From the IMG/VR virus record IMGVR_UViG_3300032931_000366, positions 1-24,012 of that record: a stretch of DNA of 24,012 nucleotides, one strand, 5' to 3'. The stretch is from a virus. Of this stretch, positions 2,398 to 14,895 are shown piece by piece. A program made the translations under genes and the position numbers. The notes under the pieces are model-generated. The model ran no database searches and had not been told where the DNA came from. It saw only the letters and a program-made list of their open reading frames with translations. Every line of letters begins with the position of its first letter. Position 1 is the stretch's first letter.

Positions 2398-2767
2398 AAT
2401 CTATCCTGTTAAATTATGGGTGACAATAACAAAGAATGGAGAGGAGCTACAGGGTAGATTTTGTTATTTGAATGGAAAGGATATGGATATTTCCTTGCTA
2501 AAGAATAATGAAGCTACTGTATATGTAATACAGCAGAAGGATGGAGAGAGATATAAAGGAATTATTATTGTCTTTACAGAGAAGAAATACATGTCTGTTA
2601 AAACTATAGCTCATGAAGCTACACATGCTGCAAGATTTATATGGGATCATCTGGGAGAAGTTTTTCCAAGTGAAGAAGCTGATGCTTATTTAGTGGGATG
2701 GGTAGCTAAATGTTGCGAGATAGTAAAGGATTATAAAAAGAAGAAAGATGTTGATAAGCTGGATTAG
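2369..2767 (+). CDS. HExxH zinc metallopeptidase-like protein, 132 aa
   Basis: Residues 82-86 are HEATH, the HExxH zinc-binding and catalytic motif, in a helix (TIAHEATHAARFIW). Glu102, Glu103 or Asp105 in the following segment (SEEADAYLVGWV) could supply the third zinc ligand, as in gluzincin-type peptidases. The N-terminal 75 residues are mostly beta strands. The protein is very small for a peptidase, comparable to the minimal metallopeptidase domains seen in some phages. Its place in a packaging and head operon would suit processing of a head protein, but the substrate is unknown. The gene overlaps the upstream one by 29 bases, and its last ten bases, including the TAG, lie inside the tRNA gene at 2758-2830. 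Confidence 0.7.
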   Translation: MVTIHQFNPEIYPVKLWVTITKNGEELQGRFCYLNGKDMDISLLKNNEATVYVIQQKDGERYKGIIIVFTEKKYMSVKTIAHEATHAARFIWDHLGEVFPSEEADAYLVGWVAKCCEIVKDYKKKKDVDKLD

Positions 2768-2830
2768 CTCAGATGGTAGAGCATCTGTTTTGTACTCAGA
2801 GGGTCAAGGGTTCAACTCCTTTATCCAGCT
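2758..2830 (+). tRNA. tRNA-Thr (anticodon TGT)
   Basis: A complete 73-nt cloverleaf is visible. The acceptor stem GCTGGAT (2758-2764) pairs with ATCCAGC (2823-2829). The D stem is GCTC/GAGC (2767-2770, 2779-2782). The anticodon stem 2784-2788/2796-2800 has four pairs and one T-T mismatch next to the loop TTTGTAC. The T stem is AAGGG/CCTTT with one G-U pair, and the T loop is TTCAACT. The anticodon TGT (2791-2793) reads ACA, and other ACN codons if suitably modified. CCA is not encoded. The 5' end overlaps the stop of the metallopeptidase-like gene. Confidence 0.93.
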
Positions 2831-2843
2831 CAAATAATTAAAT

Positions 2844-8658: not shown

Positions 8659-8758
8659 ACATAATGCCATTAAGAGCTAATAAAACACTATAAAAACAAA
8701 CTATTTTAGTTATTTGTAATTAAATTAATTATATTTTTACATTAGAAAACTACATAAT
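8659..8758 (+). other. A/T-rich gap between portal and scaffold genes
   Basis: One hundred bases, almost entirely A and T, without a supported gene; the only ATG frame has nine codons. The segment near 8730 (TATATTTTTAC) resembles a -7 box only loosely, and no -33 box is at the right distance. It could be a promoter or an A-rich leader for the scaffold gene. Confidence 0.4.
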
Positions 8759-9968: not shown

Positions 9969-9990
9969 ATTAATTTAAAAATTTAGAAAA
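9969..9990 (+). promoter_or_regulatory. A/T-rich translation leader of the capsid gene
   Basis: ATTAATTTAAAAATTTA (9969-9985) followed by five bases before ATG 9991. The same 17 bases at the same distance precede the gene at 13612. Bacteroidales genes depend on A/T-rich unstructured leaders rather than Shine-Dalgarno sites, so this is probably a strong initiation leader. Confidence 0.65.
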
Positions 9991-11544
9991 ATGGCGTTTC
10001 AGACTATCCCAGGGTTAACTGGGTTTACTTATGCAAGAGTAGCATCTATGGACAAGCGTGCTGTAGGCAAGCTTACTGATGCTAACCACCTGGAATCATT
10101 TCACTCTACAGAACCTGCTGACTATGACAAGAAAATTATTTCCTTGTATACCCAGAGTTCTCTGTATAGCAATGATTTCCTTGACATGATCAATAAAAGC
10201 ACACCTTATTACATTGATAATAATAGTGATGCTTGGAAGTGGAAAATACAAGTTCCTTACAAATTCCCGAAGATTATAGCTATTCCTCATTCAACACAGG
10301 ATTTGGTTAGACCGGGTATTGATGGACAGGAATTTTCAGTGGTGCTTGATAGCAATGAATTCTCCAAGAATTCTGTTGTTTCCGTTGGCTCTCGTCAATA
10401 TGGACCTCGTTGGTATGTTATTAACGATCCTCTGCCCTGGAACATGGGGTACTTGTATTCTTTTAACCTGATTACTGACAATCCTACTGTTGATTTTGTC
10501 TCTTCTAACTTCCTGCAGATTGGACTGGAACTTGAATTAATTGATGGTATCATCGGTGAATTTGACCAGGATTTGCTTGGGCTTCCTCGTTTGGGTGAAG
10601 AGATTACAATGTTTGAAAGCTTGAGCTCTGGCTATGGCTTTGAACATACCATCACTAAATGGGCTGATGAAAGGACATTGAAAGATGCTTCAGGGAAAGC
10701 TCTGGATATTCTTGTATATGCTCCACAGCGCAGGAACCAGCTTCCTCTTACAAGGAATGATGTTAAATGGGAACCCTTCATTGAATTCTGGATGCGTAAG
10801 GCAATGCTGGAAATGAAGGTGAAAAGGATGATTTGGAGTAAACCAGGAACAGTGAAGACTAATGGCTCCAAACAGGAATTAAAACGTAGTTCTGCTGGTG
10901 TATATCATAGAATGCGTAACAATGGTAATTTAACACAATACAACAGGGGTGAATTCTCTGCCAATCTTATTAGGTCGGTATTTGGAGATTTGTTCTACAG
11001 GCGTGTTGATGTGAAAGATAGGAAGGTGAAGATGTATACTAATGAAAGTGGTTTTGACACCTTCCAGCAGGCTCTTAAAACTGATGCTTTGAATTCAGGA
11101 CTTACCTTCATGGCTGATAGTGGCAATCGCTATCTGCAGGGTGAAGGACAGCACATCACCTATAACTTCGCTTTTGATGCTATAGTGACGAGGGAAACTG
11201 GAAGGGTTGAATTAGTACACCTGAAAGAACTTGACCTCCCGCAGACAAATCTTGAATTTGGACAGAATAAGAAATCTACACCTGTATTCTTCGTGTTTGA
11301 TGTTTCTCCTAATAGTGATGGATCACTAGTGAACAATATCAGAGAGGTTAGAATGCAGGGCAGTCCTTCAATGACTTGGGGATATATTGATGGTAGGGCA
11401 CATCACTTGGGATTCGCTAAATCACAAGGTATGAGTTCAGCTAACAAATTCCCAGGATACACACTGTGGATGGAAGATAGATGCGATGTTTTCATCGAGG
11501 ATTTATCTCGTACAGTGCTCATAGAAGAGATGCCACAATACTAG
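9991..11544 (+). CDS. Major capsid protein, 517 aa
   Basis: HK97-fold major capsid protein forming the icosahedral shell; called from its place after portal and scaffold, its length (crAss-like MCPs are about 500 aa) and the sequence, which starts MAFQTIPGLTGFTYARVASM, has many aromatic and Pro residues in the core and ends with SPSMTWGYIDGRAHHLGF followed by a segment near the C-terminus (VFIEDLSRTVLIEEMPQY). Codons are richer in G and C than in most neighbours, and the strong leader at 9969-9990 fits very high expression. No protease-processed N-terminal delta domain is obvious. A hairpin follows the TAG stop. Confidence 0.9.
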   Translation: MAFQTIPGLTGFTYARVASMDKRAVGKLTDANHLESFHSTEPADYDKKIISLYTQSSLYSNDFLDMINKSTPYYIDNNSDAWKWKIQVPYKFPKIIAIPHSTQDLVRPGIDGQEFSVVLDSNEFSKNSVVSVGSRQYGPRWYVINDPLPWNMGYLYSFNLITDNPTVDFVSSNFLQIGLELELIDGIIGEFDQDLLGLPRLGEEITMFESLSSGYGFEHTITKWADERTLKDASGKALDILVYAPQRRNQLPLTRNDVKWEPFIEFWMRKAMLEMKVKRMIWSKPGTVKTNGSKQELKRSSAGVYHRMRNNGNLTQYNRGEFSANLIRSVFGDLFYRRVDVKDRKVKMYTNESGFDTFQQALKTDALNSGLTFMADSGNRYLQGEGQHITYNFAFDAIVTRETGRVELVHLKELDLPQTNLEFGQNKKSTPVFFVFDVSPNSDGSLVNNIREVRMQGSPSMTWGYIDGRAHHLGFAKSQGMSSANKFPGYTLWMEDRCDVFIEDLSRTVLIEEMPQY

Positions 11545-11566
11545 CATATTGATTATCAACAAGAAA

Positions 11567-11598
11567 GGGAGCCTCTGATGACGGGGCTCCCCTCTTCT
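11567..11598 (+). terminator. GC-rich hairpin after the capsid gene
   Basis: GGGAGCC (11567-11573) pairs perfectly with GGCTCCC (11585-11591) around an 11-base loop. The following CTCTTCTT is pyrimidine-rich but not a pure T run. It may be a partial terminator or a 3'-end stabilizer separating abundant MCP message from downstream genes. Confidence 0.6.
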
Positions 11599-11629
11599 TA
11601 AAAATTATAAACTACATATTATTCACGTT

Positions 11630-12598
11630 ATGGGCAGAATAGGCAGAATATCTACTATCAAGAAGGGTTATAGTAGTACAGGACAACAGACAATGCAAGG
11701 AGGACTTGCTCAAAAAGGAATGACAAGAATTCCAGGTACTGGCGTTTTTAAATTTCCTTACAAAGAACTGGATGGGAAGTATAGAACAGGATTGGATGAA
11801 AAAGCTTCCTACATACAGAGAATTCAAGATCCTGTAGAAAAAGAGCTAGAGATAAAAAGAGTGAAGGAAACAAAAGCAAGACTTCAAGAAAATCTTGGAG
11901 AAGTTGATTTAGGACCACGTTCTTTATTCTGGAATTACGCTCTTTCCACTTCACCAGATGATAGTACACATGTTCAACCTGCCAAGTTGATGGATGGTGA
12001 CAATCTCTATGATTTAGGAGTTCCTTTCCAGGAGCTGACATTTTCATGGCTCAGGGTACATCCTACAATTGCAAGCTCCTATCAAGCATGGGAGAGAGGA
12101 GAATATCCTGCTGACATTCAATTTTATGTTGCGGACGAAGAAATAGAGAATGCTGTTACATTTAAAAAGAAACAACTCATCAACAAGGCCATTGCTAAAT
12201 TTGAAGTTATGTCTCCTGACAAGAGGAAGAAGGTAGCAAGAATGCTGGGTTTGCCTGTTAGTGACAGTAGTACAGAAGAATCTGTATATAACCAAGTGGA
12301 TAATCTCCTGAAGGAAACAGAATTTAAAACTGGTAAATATCAAGGACTTTCCACTGTACAGATATTCAATACCTTCTCTGACATGGATAATAAACTACTT
12401 AACGTGAAAGATATGGTAAAACAAGCTATAGCTCACTCTATATACAGGATTAAAGGTGCTGGTAAGATATATGAAGGAGATTACGAGCTTGCAAATGATG
12501 AAGATGAAATGGTGAAATTCCTTATTGATGATGACCACCAGGATGATCTTCTCATGCTTGAAAAGAAACTTAAGACAAAGAAAATAGCAACATCATGA
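11630..12598 (+). CDS. Conserved crAss-like structural protein after MCP, 322 aa
   Basis: Starts MGRIGRISTIKKGYSSTGQQ with a Gly/Ser-rich, probably extended N-terminus, a Lys/Glu helix at about residues 60-95, an aromatic core (SLFWNYALSTSPDDSTHVQP onwards), and a helical C-terminus ending in a lysine-rich tail. Crassvirales keep a gene of this kind just downstream of MCP; I assign it as a virion or head-completion protein from position and general resemblance, without a known enzymatic motif. The ATGA overlap with the next gene (four bases) indicates coupled translation with a ring-type protein, so a role at the neck or in head completion is likely. Confidence 0.6.
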   Translation: MGRIGRISTIKKGYSSTGQQTMQGGLAQKGMTRIPGTGVFKFPYKELDGKYRTGLDEKASYIQRIQDPVEKELEIKRVKETKARLQENLGEVDLGPRSLFWNYALSTSPDDSTHVQPAKLMDGDNLYDLGVPFQELTFSWLRVHPTIASSYQAWERGEYPADIQFYVADEEIENAVTFKKKQLINKAIAKFEVMSPDKRKKVARMLGLPVSDSSTEESVYNQVDNLLKETEFKTGKYQGLSTVQIFNTFSDMDNKLLNVKDMVKQAIAHSIYRIKGAGKIYEGDYELANDEDEMVKFLIDDDHQDDLLMLEKKLKTKKIATS

Positions 12599-13323
12599 TT
12601 TCTGTAGACAGCTTGTTATACAAGATAGACCTGAAACTAAATAAACTATCCACTAACGAGCATCAGCAGATTCCTATAGAGAACAAGATACTTGCTCTTA
12701 ATGAAGCTCAATTAAAGCTCATAAAGCAGAAGGTAGATGGTTTGAGTGTTCCAAGTGGATTGGGATATGACAGCTTTAAGAAGCGATATCAGGATTTACA
12801 AATACTCGCTGAAGACTACATAGATCATCCTCTTGTGCTTATAGAGAAAGATGACAAACTAAATAGGTGGGGTGCAGATATTCCTACAAGCCCGAAATAC
12901 ATGTTTTATATAGACAGTTATTTCTTGGCTAATAAGGGAAAATGTGTAGACAGGATAATATGGATTAATCAGGATTTAGCTAAACATGGAGACATTTCCT
13001 TGTTGATAAAAAATTCTCATTATAAACCATCATTCGAGTACCAGGAATCATTTAATGTAGTATCTTCGGATGAAATTAGTATTTTCACTGATGGTACTTT
13101 CACACCAACTAAATTATATTTAATGTACCTTCGTTATCCTTTATATATAGATAAAGCAGGGTATGTTAAATTTGATAGCACAGATTCTGTTAATCAAAAT
13201 TGTGAATTAGAAGAATATTTGGAAGATGAGCTTTTGGATTTAACAGTACAAGCTTTAGCCATGTATACAGAGAATGCTCCAGCTGTGCAGAGTAGTCAAT
13301 TTAGAATACAGACAAATGAATAA
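12595..13323 (+). CDS. Ring/neck-type tail protein, 242 aa
   Basis: An N-terminal helical region (about residues 1-85) is followed by a beta-rich middle and a C-terminal helix (CELEEYLEDELLDLTVQALA, about 195-215). That C-terminal pattern recurs in the 18216 protein (GYLEKQVLDLTSQKL) and more loosely in the 19442 protein (RIQEYIELFIKQKMFEQL), suggesting three related neck or tail ring proteins. In crAss-like virions several stacked rings connect the portal to the tail muzzle, so this is probably one of them. It is coupled to the preceding gene by a four-base ATGA overlap. Confidence 0.6.
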   Translation: MISVDSLLYKIDLKLNKLSTNEHQQIPIENKILALNEAQLKLIKQKVDGLSVPSGLGYDSFKKRYQDLQILAEDYIDHPLVLIEKDDKLNRWGADIPTSPKYMFYIDSYFLANKGKCVDRIIWINQDLAKHGDISLLIKNSHYKPSFEYQESFNVVSSDEISIFTDGTFTPTKLYLMYLRYPLYIDKAGYVKFDSTDSVNQNCELEEYLEDELLDLTVQALAMYTENAPAVQSSQFRIQTNE

Positions 13324-13334
13324 TATTAAATAAA

Positions 13335-13577
13335 ATGGCAACAATTAAAAAAGCACAATCAGGTTCAAGAGTTCCTAATGTAGAAAAAGTTAAAGAGTGG
13401 GGAATAAAAAATCAACCCTATACTAAAAAAGCAGTAAGAAAAGTAAATAATGGAAAATGGATATACCAGAATGTAGGAGTAATTGTAAAAAGAGACAACC
13501 CTCTTAAAAAACCTACAGGTACATATACAACTAATAGAGCAGAGCGTATTTATAACAAATATAACAAAAACAAATAA
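13335..13577 (+). CDS. Small basic protein, 80 aa
   Basis: Starts MATIKKAQSGSRVPNVEKVK and is rich in Lys, Arg, Asn and Tyr throughout (for example TKKAVRKVNNGKWIYQNVG), ending YNKYNKNK. No domain is recognised. The charge suggests nucleic-acid or capsid-interior binding; small basic packaged proteins are common in phage heads. It stands between a ring-type protein and an abundant virion protein, 11 bases after the first, and its stop is followed by the strong leader at 13590. Confidence 0.65.
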   Translation: MATIKKAQSGSRVPNVEKVKEWGIKNQPYTKKAVRKVNNGKWIYQNVGVIVKRDNPLKKPTGTYTTNRAERIYNKYNKNK

Positions 13578-13589
13578 CTCTTTTTTAGT

Positions 13590-13611
13590 ATTAATTTAAA
13601 AATTTAAACAA
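13590..13611 (+). promoter_or_regulatory. A/T-rich leader identical to the capsid leader
   Basis: ATTAATTTAAAAATTTA at 13590-13606 is identical to 9969-9985 and also stands five bases before the ATG (13612). The shared leader implies that this gene is meant to be expressed at capsid-like levels. Confidence 0.65.
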
Positions 13612-14832
13612 ATGGCAGATTTTTCATTAACGACATTATTTGTCGTGCCAGTGGGAGAAACAATTCCCAGCTCTGGTTCTAAATCTACGCAAGACCTTGA
13701 TGCAGGTGAAGTAGGGTTCTTCGGAACTGATTATGTAGCAGTGGATAATACAAACATTGCTGCTGAAAGCTATTTCTACGTTGCCCAGGGTAGAAACAAT
13801 ACCTACATGTTAGGTAGTAAAAGGTCAGATAGGATTAAAGGTTGTGCTACTGCCAACTGTAGATCTAATATCACTGAAGCTTACAAGGTATGTGGCTGTG
13901 GTACTCCTGTTAACCAGATTCTTCAAATTGGTGATTGGAATGTAAAATGTGGTGAAATTGTCACTATCACTTTACGTGCACACTCAAGCTATCTTGATAC
14001 TCTCTATTTTAATGGACTTACACGTAGTGTTACTGTCCAGGCTCCTTGTTGTGATTGTGATGGTGATCCTTGTGATCCTGTGGATTGCAGTGGTCTTCTT
14101 GATCTAATTATAAGCAAACTTACTGGCTACACTACTACCAGTGGTGTCACTGATTGGGACTCTCCTATTTCAGAAGTGTCGCTGGGTATTAATCCTGATA
14201 ATTTTAATTTGAATACTTTCTTCACTTTCTCGAAAGTCACTGTAGCTGAAGATACTTGTGTTCTCCAGATTGAAGGAAAACCTCTGACAGCTTATGGTGT
14301 TCCTTGTGATGTTGCTGCTTTCCCGTTTGAATATGACAGGATGTGGTTCAGGGGATGGGCTTACACTGGTCCTGCTACCACTGTTGATTTCATCGTTGCT
14401 GATGCTTGTAATATCATTGCAACTTCCACCACTGTCCAGAACTCTGTATATGCCACTGGCACTTCTGCAGAGATCAAACAGCTGGAGAAGAACTATTACA
14501 GCTACCAGGCTGGCTTGCTGAAACATCTCTACAGGCAGATGGGCTGGAACCAGAATTTTGATAGTTGGGTAACTGATGGCACTGTTTATGACACTTATTA
14601 TATCAAGTTCAATAATATTGATAAATCTGCTTATAGCTGGGGTGATTATATTCCTGATGATAGCATGGTGATTATAGCTGTTGAAAAGGTAAGTGCTGCT
14701 AATACAGCTATTGGACTTGCTCTTACTGCTGCTATTGGTACTCTGACTTGTGATAATGAATGTATCACTACTACCAGTACCACTACTGTTGCTCCTACCA
14801 CTACTACCACTACCACTGAAGGTCAGGGTTAG
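13612..14832 (+). CDS. Abundant Cys-rich virion protein with Thr-tract tail, 406 aa
   Basis: A beta-rich protein that begins MADFSLTTLFVVPVGETIPS. Cysteines cluster at residues 78, 83, 94, 96, 113, 146, 147, 149, 154 and 159 (for example VCGCG and CCDCDGDPCDPVDC), so metal binding or disulfides are possible. A middle beta domain, a helix near 288-305 (EIKQLEKNYYSYQAGLLK) and a Thr-rich tail (about 386-402) follow. The shared capsid leader suggests an auxiliary (decoration) capsid protein or another high-copy virion component; the exact role is inferred. A strong terminator follows the stop, so it probably ends a transcription unit. Confidence 0.65.
   Translation: MADFSLTTLFVVPVGETIPSSGSKSTQDLDAGEVGFFGTDYVAVDNTNIAAESYFYVAQGRNNTYMLGSKRSDRIKGCATANCRSNITEAYKVCGCGTPVNQILQIGDWNVKCGEIVTITLRAHSSYLDTLYFNGLTRSVTVQAPCCDCDGDPCDPVDCSGLLDLIISKLTGYTTTSGVTDWDSPISEVSLGINPDNFNLNTFFTFSKVTVAEDTCVLQIEGKPLTAYGVPCDVAAFPFEYDRMWFRGWAYTGPATTVDFIVADACNIIATSTTVQNSVYATGTSAEIKQLEKNYYSYQAGLLKHLYRQMGWNQNFDSWVTDGTVYDTYYIKFNNIDKSAYSWGDYIPDDSMVIIAVEKVSAANTAIGLALTAAIGTLTCDNECITTTSTTTVAPTTTTTTTEGQG
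14767..14817 (+). repeat. Thr-tract repeat 1
   Basis: ACT/ACC-rich degenerate trinucleotide repeat coding for a Thr-rich C-terminal tail. It ends ACTACCACTACCACTGAA, nearly identical to the tract at 17245-17292, which also ends ACTACCACTGAA. Confidence 0.7.
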
Positions 14833-14857: not shown

Positions 14858-14895
14858 GTGCCAGGGGAGGAATAAAATCCTCTGGCACTTTTATT
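14858..14895 (+). terminator. Intrinsic terminator after the Cys-rich virion gene
   Basis: GTGCCAG...AGGA (14858-14871) pairs with TCCTCTGGCAC (14878-14888) with a small bulge around a loop of A/T bases, followed immediately by TTTTATT. Stem, G+C content and T tail are those of a rho-independent terminator. Confidence 0.85.

Follow-up and report, generated by a model that had tools for sequence, protein, structure and literature searches.

A 17-nt sequence, ATTAATTTAAAAATTTA, was found immediately upstream of both the major capsid protein (MCP) gene and a second capsid gene of a crAss-like phage. The most likely reading, with a probability of about three in four, is a strong initiation region of the Bacteroidota type with this 17-mer as its core; such a region does not depend on a Shine-Dalgarno site and would be used separately by two capsid cistrons with equal demand. 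The window, i.e., the whole analysed stretch, comprised 24,012 bases of an IMG/VR virus record. The features of the two cistrons, all on the plus strand, were as follows.

9969-9985, plus strand: MCP leader, 17 nt, at -22 to -6 relative to the ATG
9991-11544, plus strand: major capsid protein, crAss type (Pfam PF23898, 1.5e-23, above the cut-off; PHROG 11589)
11567-11591, plus strand: terminator-like hairpin behind the MCP gene (GGGAGCC...GGGCTCCC, then CTCTTCTT; GC-rich, z -3.45)
13590-13606, plus strand: leader of the auxiliary capsid gene, 17 nt, core TTTAAAA at 13595-13601
13612-14832, plus strand: predicted auxiliary capsid protein with a phicrAss001 gp36-like fold (model compared with 7qof_a; homology to FpV4 gp17)
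14858-14888, plus strand: strong hairpin behind the auxiliary gene (GC-rich, z -5.68; then TTTTATT)

The 17-mer occurred in two exact copies (0 mismatches), and no other copy was present in the 24,012-base record. Both copies ended 5 nt upstream of the ATG, with the spacers GAAAA (MCP) and AACAA (13612 gene). In the MCP leader, the core TTTAAAA occupied 9974-9980 (-17 to -11), with an A run at -14 to -10 and an A at -6; the spacer contributed an A at -3. From -22 to -1, the two leaders matched at 20 of 22 bases (mean 8.5 for all window gene pairs compared), and the sequence outside these 22 bases was entirely different between the copies. Because the window is so AT-rich, a repeated 17-mer somewhere in it is not very rare, and 11 of 200 dinucleotide-shuffled windows contained one. 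The probability that two start codons are preceded by the same 17 bases in the same register was 3.3e-8 per gene pair (column frequencies of 721 distinct leaders) and 5.6e-6 over all gene pairs; with the AT-richer column frequencies of the MCP and auxiliary leaders, whose AT content was 0.85-0.88, it was still 2e-6. These results confirmed two claims of an earlier note on this DNA, namely that an identical 17-nt leader stands at the same distance from both start codons and that the identity is unlikely to be due to chance. A literature search, itself partial, found no publication reporting this leader.

Comparison of the 13612 gene product with the sequences of named phages, Pfam, PHROGs, and the PDB yielded no match, and only a fold search resolved its identity. 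The AlphaFold2 model, built with 67 relatives as input (pLDDT 78), matched the phicrAss001 capsid chain 7qof_a with a Foldseek E-value of 7.5e-9 and a VIA Z of 16.8 over 292 residues, while the top fold from another virus had a Z of 9.2. Chain 7qof_a has 333 residues, the same length as gp36. The second domain of gp36 resembles FliD (PMC10172136), and FliD proteins were also among the matches of the 13612 model. FpV4 gp17 occupies the same place and was homologous to the 13612 product (hhalign 6.6e-7). The gene sits a few genes after the MCP gene, as in crAss001 (gp32...gp36) and FpV4 (gp13...gp17). By its predicted fold, the 13612 product would thus be a crAss auxiliary capsid protein of the phicrAss001 gp36 type. 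The capsid asymmetric unit of phicrAss001 contains nine copies of MCP and nine of gp36 (PMC10172136); given the gp36-like fold, the 13612 product is therefore expected to rival MCP in amount. The assignment as a second high-copy virion gene, which the earlier note had proposed, is well supported by this analogy, the 1:1 copy number being that of phicrAss001 only.

By synteny, crAss002 gp15 (L445:14570-15451) and p-crAss gp71 (L450:15830-16693), both annotated as 'putative tail sheath protein', correspond to the auxiliary capsid protein, and this label may be wrong. For crAss002 gp15 the correspondence is one of synteny alone, because hhalign of the auxiliary profile against it gave no match. 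A tRNA-Thr (TGT) gene was located ahead of the structural cluster (window 2758-2831), and several window proteins carried threonine-rich C-terminal tails.

A search of phage DNA with the region gave no match, and relatives were therefore taken from IMG/VR. Hundreds of contigs encoded MCPs 87-89% identical to that of the window and auxiliary proteins about 60-66% identical. In phage L083 (MCP 82% and auxiliary protein 66% identical), the exact 17-mer stood 5 nt before the auxiliary gene, and ATTAATTAAAAATTTA, with one T fewer, stood 5 nt before the MCP gene. The other relatives had only a looser class of A-rich leader without identity of the two leaders. As judged from these sequences, exact identity appears unique to this phage, with L083 coming close. 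The class itself was conserved; the clade consensus of the MCP leader was ttttaaaaaatAAAA..aaAAcAAA-ATG, and that of the auxiliary leader was TTTTaAaaatTtAAAAtAAAacAAA-ATG. The strict 17-mer was absent before the MCP genes of the cultured relatives inspected (crAss001, crAss002, p-crAss, elemoF, FpV4, Panino, and jaberico).

Among the 91 pairs of leaders compared (66 distinct loci, 14 gene families), the MCP and auxiliary leaders were the second most alike. The most alike pair preceded the 8759 and 11630 genes (12.6 of 22), so leader likeness alone is no mark of high copy, and the suggestion that like leaders are confined to a high-copy pair did not hold. The 8759 and 11630 leaders share AAACTACATA (window 8747-8756 and 11609-11618). 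Between the 12595 and auxiliary genes, the window has an inserted 80-aa ORF (13335-13577) that had no homologue among the relatives examined. The gap upstream of the auxiliary gene was 288 nt in the window vs. 19-49 nt in 146 relatives, which leaves no room for the ORF. Despite this insertion upstream, the auxiliary leader remained with its gene.

Ribosome profiling of Flavobacterium johnsoniae showed that A at -14 to -11, -6, and -3 is stimulatory, with no Shine-Dalgarno site (PMC6847099), and F. johnsoniae ompA has a TAAAA ribosome-binding site, 2-12 nt from the ATG (Chen et al. 2007, cited in PMC2483708). Both window copies carried AAAAA at -14 to -10, and the clade means of A over these positions were 0.79 (MCP) and 0.74 (auxiliary leader). 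The MCP gene had A at both -6 and -3; the auxiliary gene of the window had A at -6 and C at -3. Across the clade, the A frequencies of the two capsid genes were 0.75/0.84 at -6 and 0.87/0.99 at -3. When the six positions (A at -14 to -11, -6, and -3) were scored over 66 distinct loci and 14 gene families, the MCP gene (mean 5.21 of 6) and the auxiliary gene (4.83) were the top two of the 14 (others 2.85-4.59); in the window itself, genes 12595 and 15616 had scores equal to that of the MCP gene. A Shine-Dalgarno-like site was found in none of the 19 window genes, and over all genes in the clade such words occurred in 35 of 803 leaders vs. 19 in shuffled sequences.

The clade mean of the predicted fold around the start was weakest for the MCP gene. 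In the window, predicted pairing around the two starts was not lower than at other genes, and low structure was unsupported there as an explanation of the leader. No phage-encoded bS21 that might act as a partner of the leader was found in 14 large relatives. The Bacteroidota -7 box (TAnnTTTG) was not found close upstream of either leader copy in the window. The earlier note had read the leader as translation-enhancing; the leader's position and content fit an initiation region, which may enhance translation, and no Bacteroidota promoter box lies at the leader.

When 2.9 million viral contigs were searched for the 17-mer followed by N4-6 and ATG, 28 places were found, 21 of them with exactly 5 nt. 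Fourteen were before MCP genes and one was before the L083 auxiliary gene. Four of the 14 MCPs were called by PHROG 13704 or 11589, and the others because they clearly resembled these; the capsid matches were partly homologous, so only a few capsid lineages are represented. Two control strings with the same dinucleotide counts (shuffled and reversed) matched at 5 and 17 places, few of which were gene starts, and no capsid gene lay downstream at any of them. When the ATG was not required, an ORF began 5 nt after 12 of 82 distinct matches, compared with 0-6 at each other spacing. The MCPs of PHROG 13704, collected without regard to the leader (69 distinct leaders), had the consensus AAtTTAAAAataaaAAAtt-ATG (AAtTTAAAA-N10-ATG), in which TTTAAAA likewise lies at -17 to -11. 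The hosts of named members of these capsid families were Flavobacterium, Cellulophaga, Maribacter, and Bacteroides. The host of the window phage is probably one of the Bacteroidota; the earlier note had named Bacteroides, whereas the findings indicate the Bacteroidota as a whole.

In bacterial genomes, the matches to the 17-mer were mostly in Bacteroidota. The genes behind the leader included those for GroES, L9, CspA, GAPDH, thioredoxin, SSB, and MscL, as well as a transposase-like gene and unnamed genes. The idea that the leader is a private mark of virion proteins was contradicted by its presence before chromosomal Bacteroidota genes (GroES, L9, GAPDH, thioredoxin, and SSB). The earlier note had also named occurrence before weakly expressed genes as evidence against its reading, and the transposase-like and unnamed genes may be partly of this kind. 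A multi-copy Myroides family (METTVLN...; L248, L249, L257, L265, L289, and others) had the exact 17-mer 5 nt before the ATG; its N-terminus had no Pfam match. The -7 box was present within 40 nt upstream of the leader in 11 of 79 bacterial matches vs. 2.3 expected, and in these cases the leader therefore lies within the 5' UTR. Its recurrence ahead of capsid genes in other phages and of genes in Bacteroidota makes the leader a probable strong start signal for translation, of the known non-Shine-Dalgarno kind.

The hairpins, which the earlier note had not mentioned, are an independent feature singling out the same two genes. In 72 of 82 distinct loci, no other gene compared had a 3' hairpin as strong as those of the MCP and auxiliary genes. 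The auxiliary hairpin covaried in relatives. For the MCP hairpin, the alignment was too divergent for a common fold to be found, and most members had a strong hairpin of their own. A 3' hairpin was also present in 62 of 65 MCP genes of PHROG 13704, and hairpin and T-run terminators followed crAss001 gp32 and gp36, the elemoF MCP gene, and FpV4 gp17. These hairpins would terminate transcription or stabilise the mRNA.

The leader could instead be a late promoter of the phage, an AT-rich site for a phage or altered host polymerase from which transcription starts a few bases before the ATG. Other phages have AT-rich late promoters, crAss-like phages encode RNA polymerase subunits (crAss001 gp47-gp50), and one element before two late genes would agree with such a role. 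However, the distance to the ATG was fixed at 5 nt, and the leader recurred ahead of genes on bacterial chromosomes and in phages whose capsids are of other types. For 11 host and 3 phage copies of the leader, a Bacteroidota -7 box lay upstream, so these copies are transcribed. A promoter is made unlikely by the spacing to the start codon and by those host genes that have a promoter box of their own, and the leader also matches the published determinants of translation (PMC6847099).

Copying of an intergenic segment by gene conversion or duplication, with selection only for a generic A-rich leader, would explain why exact identity was limited to this phage and nearly L083, why other relatives showed only the loose class, and why the flanks differed wholly just beyond the 22 bases. 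It is improbable as a full account, since L083 kept near-identical leaders despite protein identities of 66-82%, and capsid genes of other families are also preceded by this 17-mer. Copying by recombination may account for the identity beyond likeness and is compatible with an initiation region. Under chance or composition, any two AT-rich leaders in such genomes would look alike, with no special role for the 17-mer; the AT content of the present leaders (0.85-0.88), the repeated 17-mers in 11 of 200 shuffled windows, and another leader pair as alike in the clade would suit this. This reading is already disfavoured and very improbable, given the in-register probability of 2e-6 to 3e-8, the spacing peak at 5 nt, and control strings of matched composition that were rarer at gene starts and never before capsid genes.

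For a Shine-Dalgarno-independent initiation region, the mechanism would be as follows. MCP and the auxiliary protein would be needed in about equal and very large numbers. The presumed bS1 contact on the mRNA would coincide with the A run at -14 to -10, bS1 being the putative reader of the leader, and A at -6 and -3 would stimulate initiation; the leader would thereby raise translation, and matched leaders may give matched amounts of protein. With a terminator-like hairpin at its end, each capsid cistron resembles an expression cassette made up of leader, capsid gene, and hairpin within the structural gene cluster. A more speculative extension, which we consider doubtful, is that Bacteroidota phages share one optimised 'capsid-strength' leader (ATTAATTTAAAAATTTA-N5-ATG, core TTTAAAA at -17), and that its two identical copies here fix the MCP:auxiliary ratio at 1:1 by translation, each in a cassette bounded by a hairpin.

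The mechanism class of the leader is already known. Phage T7 gene 10 has a similar outline, with an AU-rich leader before the major capsid gene and the Tphi terminator behind it; however, it uses a Shine-Dalgarno site in Escherichia coli, whereas here there is none and the leader is on two capsid cistrons. In phicrAss001, the same proteins, gp32 (MCP) and gp36 (auxiliary), are encoded in the same order with a terminator after each, but their leaders differ from each other and lack the 17-mer. The F. johnsoniae region is alike in A at -14 to -11, -6, and -3 and in having no Shine-Dalgarno site (PMC6847099); it is a statistical consensus over all genes, whereas a fixed 17-mer was found here on two cistrons and recurrently before capsid genes. 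The TAAAA of F. johnsoniae ompA (PMC2483708) also lies inside the leader, 10 nt before the ATG, but the leader has a longer context (ATTAATT-TAAAA-ATTTA) and a preferred 5-nt spacer.

Bacteroidota ribosomes ignore Shine-Dalgarno sites, very strong start signals are a practical need for engineering gut bacteria, and the capsid genes of Bacteroidota phages are a natural place to seek them. A previously unannotated gene in a large environmental crAss-like clade was identified, by its predicted fold, as a putative auxiliary capsid protein gene. The leader is short, fixed, and testable, and it predicts that two cistrons, the products of which assemble 1:1 in the solved relative, have the same output.
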